NCBI GenBank assembly: GCA_021787475.1
Contig: JAJYLW010000006.1
Coordinates: 1-64,000, forward strand
Direction: 5' to 3'
Length of the DNA stretch: 64,000 bases
Origin: Actinomycetes bacterium
Lineage (GTDB): Bacteria; Actinomycetota; Thermoleophilia; BMS3ABIN01
Under the pieces are notes generated by a model, which was not told the origin of the DNA, did not search any database, and worked only from the letters and a program-made list of their open reading frames with translations. Positions 42,849 to 62,635 of the stretch are shown here, one piece after another. A program made the translations under genes and the position numbers. Every line of letters starts with the position of its first letter. Positions within the stretch are counted from its first letter, which is position 1.

Positions 42849-43226
42849 CTAGTTTCCGTGCCGGGAGCGGTAGTCCTCGATCGCTTTGCGAAGGCCGTCC
42901 GAAGCCAGGTTGGAGCAATGCATTTTCTGCGGCGGCAGGCCTCCGAGGGCGTCGGCGACAACCTTTTTGGAGATCTCCTGGGCCTCATCCAGCCGCTTGC
43001 CCTTTGCAAGTTCGGTAACCATGCTGCTAGTGGCGATGGCGGCGCCGCACCCGAGCGTCTTGAATCTGACGTCCTCGATGCGGTCTTCCTTCTCATCGAC
43101 CTTGATCGTAATCCGCATCACATCACCGCACTGCGGGTTCCCCACCTCGCCGACCCCGTCAGGGTTCTCAACCTCGCCCATGTTGCGCGGGTTCTGGAAA
43201 TGGTCCATAACTTTCTCTGAGTACAT
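42849..43226 (-). CDS. iscU: Iron-sulfur cluster scaffold IscU/NifU-like
   Basis: 125 residues. The three scaffold cysteines are C33 (NPQCGD), C60 (TLGCGAA) and C104 (MHCSNL), with the conserved D35. It assembles [2Fe-2S] or [4Fe-4S] clusters from IscS-derived sulfur and passes them to apoproteins. An ATG at 43226 follows AGGAGG by 7 nt. It is cotranscribed with iscS and the Rrf2-TusA gene, and a terminator follows. Confidence 0.95.
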   Translation of the reverse strand: MYSEKVMDHFQNPRNMGEVENPDGVGEVGNPQCGDVMRITIKVDEKEDRIEDVRFKTLGCGAAIATSSMVTELAKGKRLDEAQEISKKVVADALGGLPPQKMHCSNLASDGLRKAIEDYRSRHGN

Positions 43227-43256: not shown

Positions 43257-44510
43257 TTAACCGGCAGCCTCGCAGTCACAACCTTCCGTTTTGTCAAAAG
43301 CGGCGCATTTCTTGTTCCCGCGCTTATAAACCGGGGACATTTCCCGAAGTCGCCCGGCGACAGCCGCGATCGCTTCAAGGGCGTAATCTATCTCTTCCCG
43401 CGTTTCCCCTTTCGCCATCGAGATTCTGACAGAGCCGTGCGCCAGCTCCGCCGGCATGCCCAGCGCCAGCAGGATGTGCGACGGCTCCAGGCTCCCGGAG
43501 ACGCAGGCCGAACCGGTCGAGATGAAAACCGGCCTTGCCCCTTCGGCCGTGGGATAGGACAGCGACAGCATGATTGATTCGCCTTCGATTCCTTCCAGGG
43601 AAAAATTAACGTTATTGGGAAGCCGACGGCGGCGGTGTCCGTTGATGCGTACGTCCTCGATGTTTTCCTCCACCCAGGCAAAGATATAATCCCTGAGGCT
43701 GCCAAGCTGATCGGCTTCAGCCACCAGGTCGCGGCTGGCAATCCGGGCGGCCTCGCCCAGGCCGACGATGCCGGGCACGTTGTGGGTGCCGGCGCGGCGC
43801 TTCTTTTCCTGGCTGCCTCCATGAAGCAGCGGAATAATCCGGACGCCGCGCTTGATGTAGAGGGCGCCCACTCCCTTGGGGCCGTAGAATTTGTGCCCGG
43901 AAAGTGACAGCAGGTCTGCACCCAGCGCCTGAACATCGACCGGGATATGGCCGACGGTCTGGGCGGCATTAACATGAAAGGCTACGCCGCTTTCACGGGC
44001 AATGCGGCCAATCTCTGTAATTGGCTGGATGGTGCCAATCTCATGGTTGGCGTGCACCATCGTAATAAGCACCGTGTCGGGACGAATAGAGGCTGCGACC
44101 GCATCCGGATCAACGAGGCCGTCGGAATCGACGGGCAGATAGGTCACATCCCAGCCCTTTTTTTCCAGGTGGCGTAGCGGCATCAGGATGGAGTGATGCT
44201 CGGCTTCGTTGGTGATAATATGCCTTCCCTTTCCCGCCCGCGCCTCAGCGACTCCCTTGATGACCCAGTTGTTCGATTCGGTGGCGCCGCTTGTAAAGAA
44301 AATATCCTTGGACTCGGCGCCAATCAGCCCGGCCAGGCTCTGGCGGGCTGACTCAATTGCCTGCTTCGCCTCGGAGCCCATCGAATACAAGGTGGCGGGG
44401 CTGCCAAAGTTCTGCTCAAGCCATGGCAGCATTGCCGCCACCACTTCCGGATCGGTCCGGGTAGTTGCGGCATTATCAAGGAAAATAGCTGAATTTGTTG
44501 ATTTTCCCAT
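43257..44510 (-). CDS. iscS: Cysteine desulfurase with Cys-rich C-terminal tail
   Basis: 417 residues, about 30 longer than usual NifS/IscS. The PLP lysine is in SLSGHKFYGPKG and the catalytic cysteine in STGSACVSGSLEP. It yields sulfane sulfur from cysteine for IscU and thiolation routes. The C-terminal extension ends 'KRGNKKCAAFDKTEGCDCE', with three more cysteines, and could hold a metal or take part in persulfide transfer. It lies between iscU and the Rrf2-TusA fusion. Confidence 0.94.
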   Translation of the reverse strand: MGKSTNSAIFLDNAATTRTDPEVVAAMLPWLEQNFGSPATLYSMGSEAKQAIESARQSLAGLIGAESKDIFFTSGATESNNWVIKGVAEARAGKGRHIITNEAEHHSILMPLRHLEKKGWDVTYLPVDSDGLVDPDAVAASIRPDTVLITMVHANHEIGTIQPITEIGRIARESGVAFHVNAAQTVGHIPVDVQALGADLLSLSGHKFYGPKGVGALYIKRGVRIIPLLHGGSQEKKRRAGTHNVPGIVGLGEAARIASRDLVAEADQLGSLRDYIFAWVEENIEDVRINGHRRRRLPNNVNFSLEGIEGESIMLSLSYPTAEGARPVFISTGSACVSGSLEPSHILLALGMPAELAHGSVRISMAKGETREEIDYALEAIAAVAGRLREMSPVYKRGNKKCAAFDKTEGCDCEAAG

Positions 44511-44519
44511 TTTCTTGCC

Positions 44520-45239
44520 CTAGTTGCCGGCGACGCCAGCGCCGGTTTTGCGAATAATGAACTTTGTCTTTCTGCCGAATGGCTCATGACCGAGAAAATC
44601 ATTGCCTGTTCCCAGGCACCAGGCGGGAATATCGGCCTTGGCGCCCTCATCGTCAGCCCATATTTCGAGAACCTGCTGCGGCGCTAGCTCTTTCATCTTT
44701 CTGGCGATTCTGACAATTGGAAGCGGGCAGGCGTCGCCAACGCAGTCCAGCTTCCGGTCGGCGGCTCCGGTTTCCGCCAAGGCCACAGCCGGCCCGTCGG
44801 GTTTTGGCGGGTTTAATGGCTGGCTCTCGCTGCTTTCAGAAAGAATATCCATCAGGGTTGTTTTTTCCAGCACCTGCTCGCTCGCGCTTTTGAGCCGTGA
44901 CCAAACTCCCGCCAAGCCGCAGCCTTTCATCCTGTCGCATTGCCCGTCATGGCTGACAGAGGCGCAATTTGCGGGATCGACGCGTCCCTGGAGCGCTGTT
45001 ATGACCGCCAGCAGGCTGATTTCTACCGGCGACCGGCTCAGGCTGTACCCGCCGGACGGCCCCCTTGTGCTGATCAGCAGGCCGCCGCCCACAAGGCGGC
45101 CAAGCAACTGTGTCAAAAACGGCAGCGGAATCTGCTGCCGGCTGGCAATGCCGGCCCGCCCCACAGGGGTTTTCCCGCCCTGAGCGGCAATATCCATCAT
45201 GGCCCGCAGGCCGTACTCGCTTTTTAAGGAAATCAACAT
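44520..45239 (-). CDS. Rrf2-family regulator fused to a TusA-like sulfurtransferase domain
   Basis: 239 residues. Residues 1-135 are an Rrf2 winged-helix protein with cysteines C92, C101 and C107, comparable with the cluster ligands of IscR (C92, C98, C104). Residues 163-232 are a TusA fold with the active CPLP motif (C171). IscR senses [2Fe-2S] status and represses isc genes. TusA accepts persulfide sulfur from IscS. Here both are on one chain and in one operon with iscS and iscU. A sensor for both cluster and sulfur supply is a likely but untested role. Confidence 0.85.
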   Translation of the reverse strand: MLISLKSEYGLRAMMDIAAQGGKTPVGRAGIASRQQIPLPFLTQLLGRLVGGGLLISTRGPSGGYSLSRSPVEISLLAVITALQGRVDPANCASVSHDGQCDRMKGCGLAGVWSRLKSASEQVLEKTTLMDILSESSESQPLNPPKPDGPAVALAETGAADRKLDCVGDACPLPIVRIARKMKELAPQQVLEIWADDEGAKADIPAWCLGTGNDFLGHEPFGRKTKFIIRKTGAGVAGN

Positions 45240-45279
45240 AATAAAAACAAATTCCGGTTAAGCTAGGTTCTGTTTTAGT

Positions 45280-45308
45280 TTAATAATGTATACCTTGGTA
45301 GTCAACAA
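45280..45308 (-). promoter_or_regulatory. Promoter and operator candidate of the Rrf2-TusA/iscS/iscU operon
   Basis: On the minus strand TTGTTG (45308-45303), a 17-bp spacer and TATTAA (45285-45280). Within the spacer lies TACC-AA-GGTA (45300-45291), an inverted repeat well placed for repression by the Rrf2 protein. Confidence 0.45.
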
Positions 45309-57175: not shown

Positions 57176-57616
57176 ATGAACATTTCTGCAAAAAGCAAGT
57201 ACGCCGTCAGGGCCCTTGTTGAGCTGGCGCAGCATAACGACGGTCTGCCGGTTCCAATTGGCGATATCGCCTCCAAGCGTGATATCCCTCTCCAGTTCCT
57301 CGAGCAACTTTTCTCTAGTCTCCGCAAAGCAGGAATCCTAAACAGCCACCGCGGCGTTCGCGGCGGCTTTAGTTTCAAGCGGCTACCCGAAGATGTCAGC
57401 GTTCTTGACGTCATTGAGATTCTGGACGGGAATATCGCTCCCGCCGCCTGCACCATCGGCACCGCCTGCGACAAGGCCGAGCGCTGCGCCGTTAAGGGCG
57501 TCTGGATGGACGCCAAAAACAGCCTCGAGGGCGTCCTTGCCGCCTCCTCCATCGCGGAGCTGGCCGACAAGGAAATGATGATGCAGGATCAGGCCGAGGA
57601 AATGTACTATATTTAA
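57176..57616 (+). CDS. IscR-type Rrf2 regulator of the sulfur locus
   Basis: 146 residues. The winged helix spans 1-80 and the cluster-binding cysteines are C92, C98 and C104 (C-x5-C-x5-C), the numbering and spacing of E. coli IscR. It probably binds an Fe-S cluster and controls the operon starting at 57099. CymR, an Rrf2 protein without these cysteines, governs cysteine genes in Bacillus by binding CysK. cysK follows directly downstream here. An IscR-like sensor of cysteine supply is a reasonable inference. Confidence 0.9.
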
Positions 57617-57657
57617 AATTGAGCAATAAGTCAACAAAACAAGGTTGGAGGGAAAAG

Positions 57658-58626
57658 ATGAGCACCGTCGATACGGGGACCAATTTGATCGCAGATAATA
57701 TTATTGAGCTGATCGGCAACACGCCCCTTGTGCGCTTGAACCGGCTTACTGAAGGTCTGGGCGCCAGCGTTGTTGTGAAGCTGGAGAGCTTCAACCCCGG
57801 CGGCAGCGTCAAGGACAGGATCGGCATCGCCATGATTGAGGCGGCCGAGCGCGACGGCCTGATCGTTCCGGGCAAGACGACCATCATCGAGCCCACCAGC
57901 GGCAATACCGGCATCGCCCTGGCGATGGTCTGCGCCGCCAAGGGCTACCGTCTGGTGTTGACGATGCCGGAGACGATGAGCATCGAGCGCCGCGGCCTCC
58001 TGAAAGCGCTGGGGGCGGAGATGGTCCTCACGCCCGGCCCGGAAGGGATGCGGGGCGCCGTCGAGAAGGCAGATGAGCTTCTTGATACATTCAGCGACGC
58101 TTTTGTGCCGCAACAGTTTAACAACCCGGCAAATCCGGAGATCCACCGCCAGACCACAGGCGAAGAGATCTGGCGCGACACGCGGGGCGCCGTCGATATT
58201 TTTGTGTCCGCGATCGGCACCGGCGGCACCATCACCGGCGTGGGTGAAATTTTAAAGGAACGCAATCCTTCGGCATATGTTGTGGCTGTCGAGCCCGAGA
58301 CGTCGCCGGTGCTTTCCGGCGGCGCCCCCGGGCCGCACCGGATCCAGGGGATTGGCGCCGGATTCGTGCCGGAAGTTCTGAATACCGCCATCTACGATGA
58401 AATAATTACCGTCAGCAACGATGATTCCGAAGAGACGGCCAGGCAACTGGCCCTTCAGGAAGGGATTCTCTGCGGCATTTCTTCCGGGGCCGCCGCTTAT
58501 GCCGCCCTTGCACTTGCCAAACGACCCGAAAATAAGGGTAAAATGATTGTTGTAGTCTTGCCGGATACGGGAGAGCGCTACCTGACGACGCAACTGTTTA
58601 ACGAAGCGAGGGCGTCTTCCCGTTAA
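57658..58626 (+). CDS. cysK: Cysteine synthase, O-acetylserine (thiol)-lyase type
   Basis: 322 residues from ATG 57658, 6 nt after GGAGGG; the frame extends to 57619 but with no site. A PLP fold II enzyme: the PLP lysine is in 'GGSVKDRIG', the phosphate loop is TSGNTGIA and GTGGTITG. It makes cysteine from O-acetylserine and sulfide or a carrier thiocarboxylate. Its neighbours, a TusA, a ThiS-like carrier and a JAMM protease, suggest that a protein-bound sulfur is used, as for mycobacterial CysM. The sequence does not separate CysK from CysM. Confidence 0.93.
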
Positions 58627-58650
58627 TGCCCAGCAAGGGAGACAGCAGTC

Positions 58651-58890
58651 ATGGACATAAACGAGGATTTCCTGCTTGATGCGCGCGGGATGAAATGTCC
58701 GATGCCGTCAGTCAAGACAGCGCTGGCGCTGGAGCAGCTTGACGGCGGCGGCATCGTGAAAGTATTGATTGACGATCCCGTCAGCAAGAATGACCTGCCC
58801 ACCTGGGTGAAAAGCAACGGCCACCAGGTCCTGAGAGTGGAAGACCGGCGGGATTACTTCGAAGTTTATGTGAAAAAAGCGCAGGTTTGA
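58651..58890 (+). CDS. TusA-family sulfur carrier protein
   Basis: 79 residues. The CPMP motif (C16-P-M-P) follows 'LLDARGMKCP', the standard TusA active site that accepts persulfide sulfur. The C-terminal segment 'DYFEVYVKKAQV' completes the fold. It lies between cysK and the ThiS-like gene (1 bp before it). In several bacteria such proteins pass sulfur to biosynthetic thiolation or to assimilation. A second TusA domain is fused to Rrf2 at 44520. Confidence 0.92.
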   Translation: MDINEDFLLDARGMKCPMPSVKTALALEQLDGGGIVKVLIDDPVSKNDLPTWVKSNGHQVLRVEDRRDYFEVYVKKAQV

Positions 58891-58891
58891 T

Positions 58892-59173
58892 ATGCCAAAC
58901 AATGATTCAATAAATGGCCCGCGGTTGCTTGAGCGGGAAGATGGCCTGCCACCGGCCAGCCCGGGCCTCAGGCTGATTGTCCAGGGGGGGGAACGCATTT
59001 ATTCCGGCCCCCCGGACGTGCGCTCGCTACTGGAAGCCCGCGGTGAGAATCCCGCCTACGTTAACGTCCGCCTCAACGGCGAGGTTCTGAACCGGCGCGA
59101 TTTTGAGAAAATCACACTGCGCGAAGGCGACAAGGTTGATTTCCTTTATTTCATGGGAGGCGGAGTTGTTTAA
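58892..59173 (+). CDS. ThiS/MoaD-like ubiquitin-fold sulfur carrier ending GGGVV
   Basis: 93 residues. The beta-grasp fold ends in 'DKVDFLYFMGGGVV'. ThiS and MoaD end in Gly-Gly, which is adenylated by an E1 and turned into a thiocarboxylate. Here two valines follow the glycines, so a protease must trim the tail first. QbsE in pseudomonads and HcyS in Wolinella are processed by JAMM proteases, and one is encoded two genes downstream. The N-terminal 30 residues (NDSINGPRLLEREDGLPP) are an extension. The likely substrate route is cysteine. Confidence 0.85.
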   Translation: MPNNDSINGPRLLEREDGLPPASPGLRLIVQGGERIYSGPPDVRSLLEARGENPAYVNVRLNGEVLNRRDFEKITLREGDKVDFLYFMGGGVV

Positions 59174-59981
59174 CCTTTCCGAAGAGGAAATAGAACGCTA
59201 CTCGCGGCATATCATCCTGCCGGAGGTTGGCGGCCGCGGTCAGCAAAAGTTGAAAGAGTCGAGCGTGCTCGTCATCGGCGCGGGCGGCCTCGGCTCGCCG
59301 GCCCTGCTTTATCTGACAGCCGCCGGCATCGGCCGCATCGGCGTCATTGAGGACGACGTTGTTGACCTCACCAACCTCCAGCGGCAGGTGCTGCACGCCA
59401 CTCCCGACATCGGCAAAGCCAAGGCCAGGAGCGCCGGCGAGACGTTGCAGCAGATCAATCCCCACGTCGAGATTGACATCTACCAGCATCGGTTGACCAA
59501 AGAAAATATATTTGATATTATAGCGCCCTATGACGTCATCGTTGACGGCGTTGACAATTTTCCCACCCGCTATCTGCTCAATGACGCCTGTGTGATGAAA
59601 AAGAAGACCCTGGTCGAGGGAGGCATCCTCCGGTTCATGGGTCTGATCATGAGCATCCGTGGTGGCGAGTCGGCCTGCTACCGCTGCGTTTTTGAGGAGC
59701 CACCCCCTCCCGGCACCGTTCCCAGTTGCGCCGAAGCCGGAGTGTTAGGCGCGGTTGCCGGCGTGGTGGGGACGCTGCAGGCCACCGAGGTGCTGAAGAT
59801 ACTGGCAGGAATCGGCAAGCCGCTCTACAACCGTCTGCTCCAGTTTGACGCCGAGGAGCTGCGCTTTCACGAGGTGAAGGCAAAACGCAATCCCGGCTGC
59901 CCGGTTTGCGGCAAGAAGCCGACGATCACCGAGCTGGTCGAGTACGATTACGCCTGCGAGACCCAGGCGCCCAAAACCTGA
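59166..59981 (+). CDS. ThiF/MoeB-family E1-like adenylyltransferase
   Basis: 271 residues from TTG 59166, 5 nt after GGGAGG and overlapping the carrier gene by 8 bp. It has the nucleotide loop VIGAGGLGSPAL, the arginine-finger region 'QRQVLHATPDIGK', the transfer cysteine in GTVPSCAEAGVLG, and zinc pairs (CYRC and CPVCG). It would adenylate the C-terminal glycine of the ThiS-like carrier. There is no rhodanese domain, unlike MoeZ, so sulfur must come from another protein, perhaps TusA. Confidence 0.92.
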   Translation: MFNLSEEEIERYSRHIILPEVGGRGQQKLKESSVLVIGAGGLGSPALLYLTAAGIGRIGVIEDDVVDLTNLQRQVLHATPDIGKAKARSAGETLQQINPHVEIDIYQHRLTKENIFDIIAPYDVIVDGVDNFPTRYLLNDACVMKKKTLVEGGILRFMGLIMSIRGGESACYRCVFEEPPPPGTVPSCAEAGVLGAVAGVVGTLQATEVLKILAGIGKPLYNRLLQFDAEELRFHEVKAKRNPGCPVCGKKPTITELVEYDYACETQAPKT

Positions 59982-60406
59982 TGCCGGCGTCGCTGCGGCT
60001 CACCCGGGCGCAGCTGGAAGCCGTCCTCGGGCATGCCCGCGCCTCGTCCCCCAAGGAAGCGTGCGGCGTCCTGGCGGGTGATCCTGACGGCACTGTCCGC
60101 CGGGTGTTCACCATGGAAAACTCCGCCTCAAGCTCAACTTTTTATCTGATGGACTCGCGAGAGCAGTTCCGCGTTTTTGACCAGATCGAGCGGGAGGGGC
60201 TTGAGCTGGTGGCGATTTTTCATTCCCACCCCCACTCCCCGGCCTTTCCCTCGGGCCGCGACACCGAGCTTGCTTTTTACCCTGATTCACTTTATTTAAT
60301 CGTATCGCTAATGTACGACAAGCCGGAATGCCGCGTTTTTAAAATCGTGGACGGGAAAGTCGAGGAAGCAGAAATGGTAATCGTTGACCGTCAGGGTACG
60401 GAATGA
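59981..60406 (+). CDS. JAMM/MPN+ metalloprotease (Mec+-like)
   Basis: 141 residues. All JAMM residues are present: E26 (KEACGV), H81 and H83 (HSHPHS), S91 and D94 (SGRD), in the H-x-H-x7-S-x2-D spacing. In Mycobacterium, Mec+ frees cysteine from CysO; in other operons the protease trims the carrier tail. Here both jobs may be done by one enzyme. The start codon overlaps the E1 stop (TGATG) and larE starts inside its own last codon. Confidence 0.93.
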   Translation: MPASLRLTRAQLEAVLGHARASSPKEACGVLAGDPDGTVRRVFTMENSASSSTFYLMDSREQFRVFDQIEREGLELVAIFHSHPHSPAFPSGRDTELAFYPDSLYLIVSLMYDKPECRVFKIVDGKVEEAEMVIVDRQGTE

Positions 60407-61251
60407 TGTCAGGAACGCCGGCGAACAAAAACGGGCCCGGGACCGTCGCCTTCTTGTTAAAACGACTGCTTGATGACATAAGACCGCTAGGAAGCGTAGC
60501 GGTGGGCTTCTCAGGCGGCGTTGACTCAACCGTTGTCGCCGCAGCGGCGGCAACGGCCCTGGGGCGGGACAAAGTCCTGGCGGTTACGGCCGCCTCCGAG
60601 ACGCTGCCGGCGCGGGAACTGGACGAAGCGCGCCGGTTGGCCGCCGGCCTCGGCATCCGCCTGGCGGTGATTCAGACGGGCGAGCTGGACAACCCGGATT
60701 TTGCCGCCAACGGTCCGGACCGCTGTTATCACTGCAAGTCGGAGCTATGGAGAAAAGTCTGTCTTGTGGCTGCGGAAAATGAACTGGCGCATCTCGCCGA
60801 CGGCGTCAATGCCGACGATCTTGGCGACTTTCGCCCCGGGATCAGGGCAAGCGATGAAGCCGGCGTCATCCACCCGCTGGCGCGGATCGGGGCGGGCAAG
60901 CAGCAGGTGCGGAAGCTGGCGCACCGGCTGGGGCTGGAAAACTGGGACAAACCGGCTCAGGCCTGCCTGTCTTCGCGGTTTCCCTATGGCGTCAGGCTAA
61001 CGCCGGCCGGCCTGGCCCGCGTTGAGCAAGCGGAGGAATTTCTGCGGGGGCTGGGATTTGAGGAGCTGCGGGTGCGGGATCATGGCAGCATCGCCCGCAT
61101 TGAAGTCCCCGCCGGCGAGCTTGCCCGCCTGGCCGCTGCCGGCCTTAAGCGGCGGGTGGTGACGCGCTTGAAGGAGATTGGCTACACCTACGTTGCCATC
61201 GATCTGGAGGGCATCCGAAGCGGCAGCATGAATGAAACCCTAAAACAGTAG
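60403..61251 (+). CDS. larE: LarE-family ATP-dependent sulfur transferase
   Basis: 282 residues with a PP-loop SGGVDS (37-42). Cysteines C108 and C111 (RCYHC) and C188 (PAQACLSSRF) are present. C188 is the position of the sacrificial cysteine of Lactobacillus LarE. The extra CxxC pair suggests the [4Fe-4S] variant seen in Thermotoga, which uses a cluster-bound sulfide and is not consumed. LarE thiolates the nickel-pincer precursor; larB and larC are absent from this window. It overlaps the JAMM gene by 4 bp and completes the sulfur operon. Confidence 0.9.
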   Translation: MMSGTPANKNGPGTVAFLLKRLLDDIRPLGSVAVGFSGGVDSTVVAAAAATALGRDKVLAVTAASETLPARELDEARRLAAGLGIRLAVIQTGELDNPDFAANGPDRCYHCKSELWRKVCLVAAENELAHLADGVNADDLGDFRPGIRASDEAGVIHPLARIGAGKQQVRKLAHRLGLENWDKPAQACLSSRFPYGVRLTPAGLARVEQAEEFLRGLGFEELRVRDHGSIARIEVPAGELARLAAAGLKRRVVTRLKEIGYTYVAIDLEGIRSGSMNETLKQ

Positions 61252-61278
61252 TTCCGGGTTCCAAGCTCCAAGAAAAAA
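61251..61278. repeat. 7-bp periodic array L
   Basis: Four phased heptamers, GTTCCGG, GTTCCAA, GCTCCAA, GAAAAAA, just after larE. Confidence 0.55.
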
Positions 61279-61361
61279 CCCTGATTCACGATTGCATCCG
61301 GCAGGCTAGAATGACATTTTTCTGATGAAGGCCGGACAAGATCAGGCAGATGGATGATTTT

Positions 61362-61389
61362 AACTCAGAACTCGAAACTGGGAACTACC
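61362..61389. repeat. 7-bp periodic array M
   Basis: Four phased heptamers, AACTCAG, AACTCGA, AACTGGG, AACTACC. It abuts the stop codon of the NIL gene. Confidence 0.65.
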
Positions 61390-61390
61390 T

Positions 61391-61627
61391 TCATTCAACG
61401 AATGATTCTAGAAACTCGACCTCTATTCCCAGTTCCTGCAAGTGCCGGATTGCTCCCTCCAGATCGGATTCCTTGCCGCTCAGCTCGAGAACCATCCAGC
61501 CGAACTTCTCATCAACATTGGCGCGCCTGATGTTGGGTATAACATTGTCCTCTTTTACCAATCGATAAATAATTGGTTTTTTTATCAAATTTTCGGGAAA
61601 GGTTAATTCGATTCGTTCGGTTTTCAC
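61391..61627 (-). CDS. NIL-domain protein
   Basis: 78 residues, a free-standing NIL domain (an ACT-like ferredoxin fold) with 'ELTFPENLIKKPIIYRLV' and 'FGWMVLELSGKESDLEGAIR'. NIL domains occur at the C-terminus of methionine ABC ATPases and are found as separate genes beside sulfur-assimilation modules. Start GTG 61627, 7 nt after GGAGGTG. It is convergent to larE and divergent from cysE, so it lies inside the sulfur locus but outside its operon. Role unknown. Confidence 0.9.
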   Translation of the reverse strand: MKTERIELTFPENLIKKPIIYRLVKEDNVIPNIRRANVDEKFGWMVLELSGKESDLEGAIRHLQELGIEVEFLESFVE

Positions 61628-61798
61628 TCGGCCGCACCTCCTTGCGGCGGCCTGCCTGCCGCTGCGGGTATGCTAATATTAGGTACAGAAAGATACTAAA
61701 CGGATCGTCAGCAAAGTTCAAAGGGAAAGCCTGAATATTCAGCTTTTGCCTGTCGTTATCCTTAGAGGCTGCCCCATAAGGCTGTTCGTGGAAGACAA

Positions 61799-62635
61799 AT
61801 GAGGTTTTTTAAAAAATCGGCCCTGTTTCTGACCACCGCCACCACCGGCGGCGCTTACCTGCTGCTTAACCGGAAAGGCAGCCTTCGCCGGACGCTGAAG
61901 GCGGTAAGCAGTGACCTCGAGGCCATCCGCGAGCGGGATCCGGCCGCGGCAAACCTGCTGGAGGCGCTGACCTGCTACTCCGGGCTGCACGCCATCCTCC
62001 TCCACCGGATGGCGCATTTTCTTTACGAGCAGGAGTTGCCGTTGGCGCCGCGGCTTGTCTCGCAGCTGAACCGCTTTCTCACCGGGATCGAGATACATCC
62101 GGCGGCGCGCATTGGCGATGGCTTTTTCATTGACCACGGCGCCGGCGTCGTGATCGGCGAAACCGCCGAGGTGGGCGAAAACGTTACCCTTTATCAGGGC
62201 GTAACCCTGGGCGGCACGGGCAAGGAAACCGGCAAGCGCCACCCCACGCTGATGGACGGCGTCACCGTCGGCGCCGGCGCCAAGGTCCTGGGCGCGGTCA
62301 CCGTCGGCGAGAACGCGAAGATCGGCGCCGGCAGCGTTGTCATCCATGACGTTCCCGCAAACTCAACCGTGGTGGGAAATCCGGGGCGGCCCGTGCGCGA
62401 GCGCGGCCGCAAGGTGGGCGCCGCCGACATCGACTGGACGCACCTTCCCGACCCGGTGGCCGACGCCATGCAATCGCTGGTTCGCCGGGTAGTGGAGCTG
62501 GAGAACGAGTTCAAGCAGGCATTCCCGGATAAGAGCGATGAAATTGAGCAAGCGCAGCGTGAAGGCGAGCAGGCCCTCGACAAAGTGTTTGATTACTACC
62601 ATGAGCAGGAGATAAAAAAGGCGGGTCAGCCTTAA
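61799..62635 (+). CDS. cysE: Serine O-acetyltransferase
   Basis: 278 residues, a left-handed beta-helix of the hexapeptide family. The acetyl-CoA/serine site is 'FIDHGAGVVIGETAEVG' and 'GGTGKETGKRHP'. It makes O-acetylserine for CysK. The typical CysE start would lie near residue 35 (SDLEAIRERDPAA); a hydrophobic 'ALFLTTATTGGAYLLL' in the first 25 residues may be a membrane anchor. A Glu/Gln-rich C-terminal helix of about 60 residues extends past the fold. It stands alone downstream of the divergent NIL gene. Confidence 0.92.
   Translation: MRFFKKSALFLTTATTGGAYLLLNRKGSLRRTLKAVSSDLEAIRERDPAAANLLEALTCYSGLHAILLHRMAHFLYEQELPLAPRLVSQLNRFLTGIEIHPAARIGDGFFIDHGAGVVIGETAEVGENVTLYQGVTLGGTGKETGKRHPTLMDGVTVGAGAKVLGAVTVGENAKIGAGSVVIHDVPANSTVVGNPGRPVRERGRKVGAADIDWTHLPDPVADAMQSLVRRVVELENEFKQAFPDKSDEIEQAQREGEQALDKVFDYYHEQEIKKAGQP

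Follow-up and report, generated by a model that had tools for sequence, protein, structure and literature searches.

An Rrf2 repressor domain and a TusA domain are joined in one chain in the window (the whole 64,000-nucleotide stretch of actinobacterial DNA that we analysed), and the gene for this fusion is the first of an rrf2tusA-nifS/iscS-iscU operon whose genes all lie on the minus strand (Table 1). The reading we favour, which we would put a little below an even chance, is that the protein is an IscR-like, probably Fe-S-binding autorepressor of the isc operon, whose tethered TusA domain would dock on, or be loaded by, IscS and would add an input of sulfur supply.

Table 1 Features of the fusion locus in the window
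Feature	Position	Strand	Basis
Rrf2-TusA fusion gene, 239 aa plus stop	44520..45239	(-)	ORF list, Pfam, full-length fusion also in 15 further genomes of the order
Rrf2 winged-helix domain, residues 4-134	44838..45230	(-)	Pfam PF02082 (1.6e-32), invariant cysteines, AlphaFold2, Foldseek
Variable flexible linker, about residues 137-156	44772..44831	(-)	pLDDT <50, low identity
TusA domain, residues 163-231	44547..44753	(-)	Pfam PF01206 (1.2e-19), fold match, constraint
Operator-like dyad, 27 bp	45281..45307	(-)	Family consensus TAATGT-N15-ACATTA, overlaps promoter
Sigma-A-like promoter inside dyad	45277..45305	(-)	TTGACT (45305-45300), 17 bp, TAAACT (45282-45277), read from sequence
Cysteine desulfurase, class V, NifS/IscS type	43257..44510	(-)	Next gene after fusion
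IscU/NifU-type scaffold	42849..43226	(-)	TIGR03419 198.9 bits, above cut-off

Domain architecture of the fusion protein

The original prediction had read Rrf2 and TusA as one chain, and both Pfam domains were found intact and over their cut-offs, with 112.8 bits against 30 for PF02082 and 70.3 bits against 28.6 for PF01206; the protein also passed the Rrf2 superfamily model TIGR00738 (109 vs. 73.3). No NCBIfam equivalog cut-off was reached, so the curated names "IscR" and "TusA" are inapplicable to the fusion, which scored 81 against 207.55 for TIGR02010 and 68.9 against 275 for NF008110 (both IscR), 38.6 against 78 for NF001423 (TusA), and 73.2 against 195 for NF047409 (CymR). The key cysteines were where they had been predicted, with C92, C101, and C107 of the Rrf2 domain spaced C-x8-C-x5-C in the window protein and C171 (codon 44727-44729) in the CPLP motif of the TusA domain, and alignment of 14 homologs showed that these four, together with C166 and C208, were invariant.

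An AlphaFold2 model built on the family alignment (mean pLDDT 75.9) was confident in the winged-helix and TusA regions, while the cluster loop (residues 89-111, which hold C92, C101, and C107) and the linker (137-156) were disordered; the pTM was 0.49, and the relative placement of the two domains in this model is unreliable. The best Foldseek matches of the Rrf2 part were CymR (2y75, at the top), RsrR, and the IscR of Thermincola potens, and the TusA part matched E. coli TusA from the IscS-TusA complex (3lvj_C) with an rmsd of 2.0. A chance domain match was ruled out by the Pfam E-values and these fold matches, and an assembly or frame artefact was ruled out because the fusion recurs in separately assembled genomes with conserved synteny.

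Operon and neighbouring genes

The fusion had been placed in the operon of the desulfurase itself, and the next genes on the same strand were indeed those for a class-V desulfurase and a scaffold protein. The desulfurase keeps the PLP lysine, the catalytic histidine, and the cysteine (equivalents of E. coli K206, H104, and C328), and the scaffold has its three cysteines in NPQCGD, LGCGAA, and HCSNL. The gene order MetG-TatD-[Rrf2-TusA]-NifS-IscU-large gene recurs in relatives wherever the contig reaches and the genes are recognisable; in the window, the large gene after IscU encodes a HAMP-GAF-HD protein. Besides the fusion, the genome of the window has four TusA genes. A separate cluster for sulfur assimilation, which has an Rrf2-TusA association of its own, lies on the plus strand at 57176-62635; there a second Rrf2 gene comes before a cysK-like PALP gene, TusA, ThiF, Prok-JAB, and an ATP-pyrophosphatase-like gene, with a serine acetyltransferase-like gene further on.

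Distribution of the fusion and its loss in one genome

The order, which consists of a single family, is represented by 19 genomes, and the search for the same two-domain architecture recovered the full-length fusion in 16 of them (that of the window and 15 others) and in no other sampled genome. The homologs in the order share about 58-71% identity, and the named relatives are MAGs assigned to Actinomycetes, Actinobacteria, Thermoleophilia, or Gaiellales, including BMS3Abin01, SURF_19, and DeMMO3_11. Neither G017 nor G018 gave a match, an absence that is uninformative as these genomes are 85 and 78% complete. In a sample of 396 genomes from the phylum, fusions were confined to this order; none were found in other phyla by a pattern scan of GTDB genomes, which is sensitive to close relatives only, or in the phylum of G414, where 297 genomes were searched without a positive control. 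A mobile or viral origin was not supported, as no relative was found among viral contigs, and the sole plasmid match covering 80% of the query was a plain Rrf2 protein. Other TusA-containing architectures were seen in two oxidoreductase-rhodanese-TusA-DsrE2 proteins (L050 and L052) and in four Binatia proteins (L053-L056), where a TusA-like C-terminus with neither CPxP nor Rrf2 stands behind an uncharacterised N-terminal region.

The remaining genome of the order, G002, has the Rrf2 part only. Its ORF (L048, 10001-10492) stops at 163 aa just past the linker with nifS directly after, so that the operator-like element, Rrf2, and the operon including the downstream nifS are kept and the TusA domain is cleanly absent. 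In the Rrf2 tree G002 was nested within the fused clade, which means that the TusA domain was lost in G002. The TusA gene count was four in G002, and four standalone genes plus the fused one in G000.

Origin of the two halves

The nearest unfused Rrf2 proteins (families f69 and f51) head rrf2-nifS-dsrE2-tusA operons, and the Rrf2 tree placed the fused domains in one clade with the Rrf2 of these operons (support 100/99). Since unfused relatives already head isc-type operons, the TusA domain is an addition. In many families across the phylum, nifS-iscU-dsrE2-tusA operons end in the gene for one of the nearest unfused TusA proteins; the gap between iscU and dsrE2 is wide enough for a small gene, which in L166 encodes a zinc-ribbon protein. 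In the TusA trees, of which the first version was rebuilt without E. coli TusA, a misplaced long branch, the fused domains formed one clade (99/99) apart from the other TusA paralogs of the same genomes and grouped with isc-operon TusA. Recruitment from the genome's own standalone TusA gene was therefore unsupported. A long stem leads to the fused clade, which also has invariant residues of its own. In L179 (genome G266), rrf2, nifS, iscU, and tusA are present as four separate genes, and the Rrf2 encoded there is no close relative. By these phylogenies and gene orders, the two halves go back to genes that stood apart in isc-type operons, and the fusion most likely arose a single time, when the ends of one such operon were brought together at the base of the order. 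The position of TusA as the 3' gene of relatives' isc operons also ties the fused TusA to this desulfurase.

The NifS proteins of the unfused operons with tusA lacked the PLP lysine in all 16 alignable cases (L083, L084, L086, L166-L168, L170-L174, L176, L178, L179, L181, and L182), with L, M, or Q at the position of E. coli K206, and kept the catalytic cysteine, and the histidine where it was checked. In Archaeoglobus fulgidus, an IscS likewise without this lysine is inactive as a desulfurase (PMC7585200). Such lysine-less NifS-IscU pairs may receive sulfur from another source through DsrE2-TusA.

Selective constraint on the TusA domain

Mean pairwise identity was 65% for the Rrf2 domain, 16% for the linker (residues 135-161), and 74% for the TusA domain. 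In pairs with unsaturated dS, dN/dS was 0.06-0.22 for Rrf2 and 0.04-0.16 for TusA, and that of the linker lay between 0.04, in one pair whose dS was near saturation, and about 0.46 and was above the flanking domains in most pairs. The TusA domain is thus the most conserved part of the protein, and purifying selection on it is at least as strong as on Rrf2. Its identity, its dN/dS, and the invariant C171 indicate that the TusA tail has been maintained by selection.

Operator-like element and promoter

A putative binding site had been proposed at 45280-45308, and it coincides with the 27-bp element that is conserved upstream of the homologs. All 16 aligned upstream regions (15 fusions and G002) had the pattern TGT[T/C][G/T]ACT-N10-ACA at fixed spacing, and the dyad score was not reached in 2000 column permutations. 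A scan of the genomes with the operator pattern found it at the fusion-locus promoter in 16, with 15 exact matches (including the tail-less gene of G002) and one mismatch in G009; the element of G008 was too divergent for the pattern, and the scan found none in G018. Elsewhere in the genomes of the order, there was only one weak match in G006 and one in G017, so a wider regulon was rejected. With essentially one operator-like site per genome, upstream of the fusion, the element looks like a dedicated autoregulatory site, and because the dyad lies across the promoter and would occlude it, repression is the expected effect. A similar promoter element was found in L083, the locus of an unfused Rrf2 relative.

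Several homologs have TTGACT-17-TAAAAT with the start codon within about 10 bp of the -10 box. In L011, L017, L018, and others, about 6-10 bp separate the -10 box from the fusion start codon, which suggests leaderless transcripts. L018, L021, and others have a second overlapping dyad, TTGTA ... TACAA, which is shifted relative to the main dyad and was the second-best palindrome centre in the upstream alignment; the two dyads are possibly two binding registers.

Putative contact surface between TusA and IscS

The contact positions were mapped with the E. coli IscS and TusA sequences, whose numbering agrees with the published account of the complex. In that account, mutations of TusA M24, R27, R31, and F58 abolish IscS binding, F58 stacks on IscS W45, and R27/R31 pair with E49/D52 (PMC2854127). 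At these four TusA positions the fused domain has mostly V, A or S, mostly R or K, and G, respectively, so that three of the four tabulated binding residues (M24, R27, and F58) are not conserved and only position 31 is largely kept. The TusA31/IscS52 pair remains mostly basic/acidic, and the TusA58/IscS45 pair is F/W in E. coli, G/S or G/A in the fusion, K/D in the aligned nifS-iscU-dsrE2-tusA operons, and A, S, or E with E in other unfused operons. The IscS of G002, which has no TusA tail to contact, has T45 and E49, and other genomes of the fused lineage have S/A and Q/I there. Such concerted changes at both sites are what a maintained contact would look like, although they comprise few independent changes and are confounded by shared ancestry.

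Proposed mechanism and alternative explanations

In the favoured mechanism, the IscR-like repressor would act on its own rrf2tusA-iscS-iscU promoter and probably bind an Fe-S cluster, and the tethered TusA would dock on the co-encoded desulfurase and take persulfide sulfur from it. Loading or docking of TusA would alter the occupancy or cluster loading of the repressor at the operator, and expression of the operon would thereby be tuned to sulfur supply and cluster status. For the fusion we infer cluster binding, sulfur transfer, the effect on DNA binding, and the sign of regulation. Such a sensor is reasonable because the Rrf2 regulator CymR does its sensing when complexed with the enzyme CysK (PMC2869319, PMC9338935), by analogy the closest mechanistic precedent, and because TusA modulates IscS activity and competes with IscU in vitro (PMC11302665). 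A stricter form, a one-chain version of the predicted sulfur-flux sensor in which the repressor accepts sulfur from the enzyme it represses and integrates C171 persulfide with Fe-S status to set isc operon expression, is possible and rather doubtful. The G002 locus speaks against a mandatory role of TusA, since it has neither the domain nor an obvious replacement and keeps Rrf2, operator, and nifS, which means that the regulation can do without the TusA domain. The unfused Rrf2 relatives at the head of similar operons, one of them with the similar promoter element, count against such a role too, and the mostly unconserved E. coli contact residues weigh against the favoured mechanism.

The same loss, with regulator and operator left intact, favours an explanation without sensing, in which TusA is a carrier that moves IscS sulfur to tRNA thiolation, molybdenum cofactor, or other acceptors, was fused to a neighbouring regulator within one transcription unit, and leaves Rrf2 to regulate through its cluster alone. 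We regard this as a serious contender, nearly as likely as the sensor explanation: many relatives have tusA as an unremarkable 3' gene in their isc operons, the catalytic cysteine and fold of the fused TusA are intact, and unfused Rrf2 relatives manage without the domain. However, the stoichiometry would be poor, as repressors are normally scarce and a carrier should be abundant, and the genome already has its four other TusA genes. It is also the fusion, and not mere co-transcription, that has been kept across the order, and the long stem and clade-specific invariant residues suggest a changed role. TusA might instead bring sulfur, or IscS/IscU, to Rrf2 so that the repressor's own cluster is assembled first, serving the cluster sensor and not itself reporting sulfur flux. 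The tether places TusA beside a cluster loop with three invariant cysteines, IscS and IscU are encoded in the same operon, and the in vitro effects of TusA on IscS and IscU fit such local loading, but to our knowledge no role of TusA in donating sulfur to cluster assembly has been established in E. coli, and we consider this explanation improbable. That the domain has no function and has simply been carried along by chance would agree with its loss in G002 and is very unlikely, given its low dN/dS, its identity far above that of the linker, and the invariance of C171 across the order.

Comparison with known systems and biological meaning

Like the IscR proteins of E. coli and Thermincola potens (4cic), the fusion has the Rrf2 fold with three cysteines near 92-107, heads an iscS-iscU operon, and has, by conservation, a binding-site-like dyad over its own promoter. 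It differs from IscR in the additional C-terminal TusA domain, in the dyad TAATGT-N15-ACATTA, and at residue 43, where Glu43 of IscR (numbered on the E. coli sequence), which takes part in site selection, is replaced by a Thr43 that is invariant in the homologs. CymR-CysK of Bacillus and Staphylococcus also couples an Rrf2 protein to a sulfur enzyme, but CysK is a separate protein, whereas the fusion has a built-in TusA and its likely partner is IscS. E. coli TusA (YhhP) shares the fold and the CPxP cysteine, but the fused version is joined to a repressor and most of its IscS-contact residues are changed. The actinobacterial rrf2-nifS-dsrE2-tusA and nifS-iscU-dsrE2-tusA operons contain a similar gene set and the nearest relatives of both domains, but as separate genes, and the PLP lysine missing from their NifS is kept by the fused operon. 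We found no published description of an Rrf2-TusA fusion, or of TusA with regulators, in the literature searched, which included few subscription papers; the predicted novelty agrees with this, but "class" overstates a protein of one Actinomycetota order.

The best-known regulator of isc genes, IscR, responds to the clusters, which are the end product. If the TusA tail of the fusion signals how much persulfide the desulfurase puts out, or whether the desulfurase is occupied, the cell would be gauging a step further upstream, the supply of sulfur, and would do so through a tethered acceptor of the very enzyme being controlled. With the fusion and the tail-less sister species, part of the question of how cells divide IscS sulfur among clusters and its other destinations becomes testable. 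The finding ties TusA to isc operons across Actinomycetota even if the tail does no more than carry sulfur.
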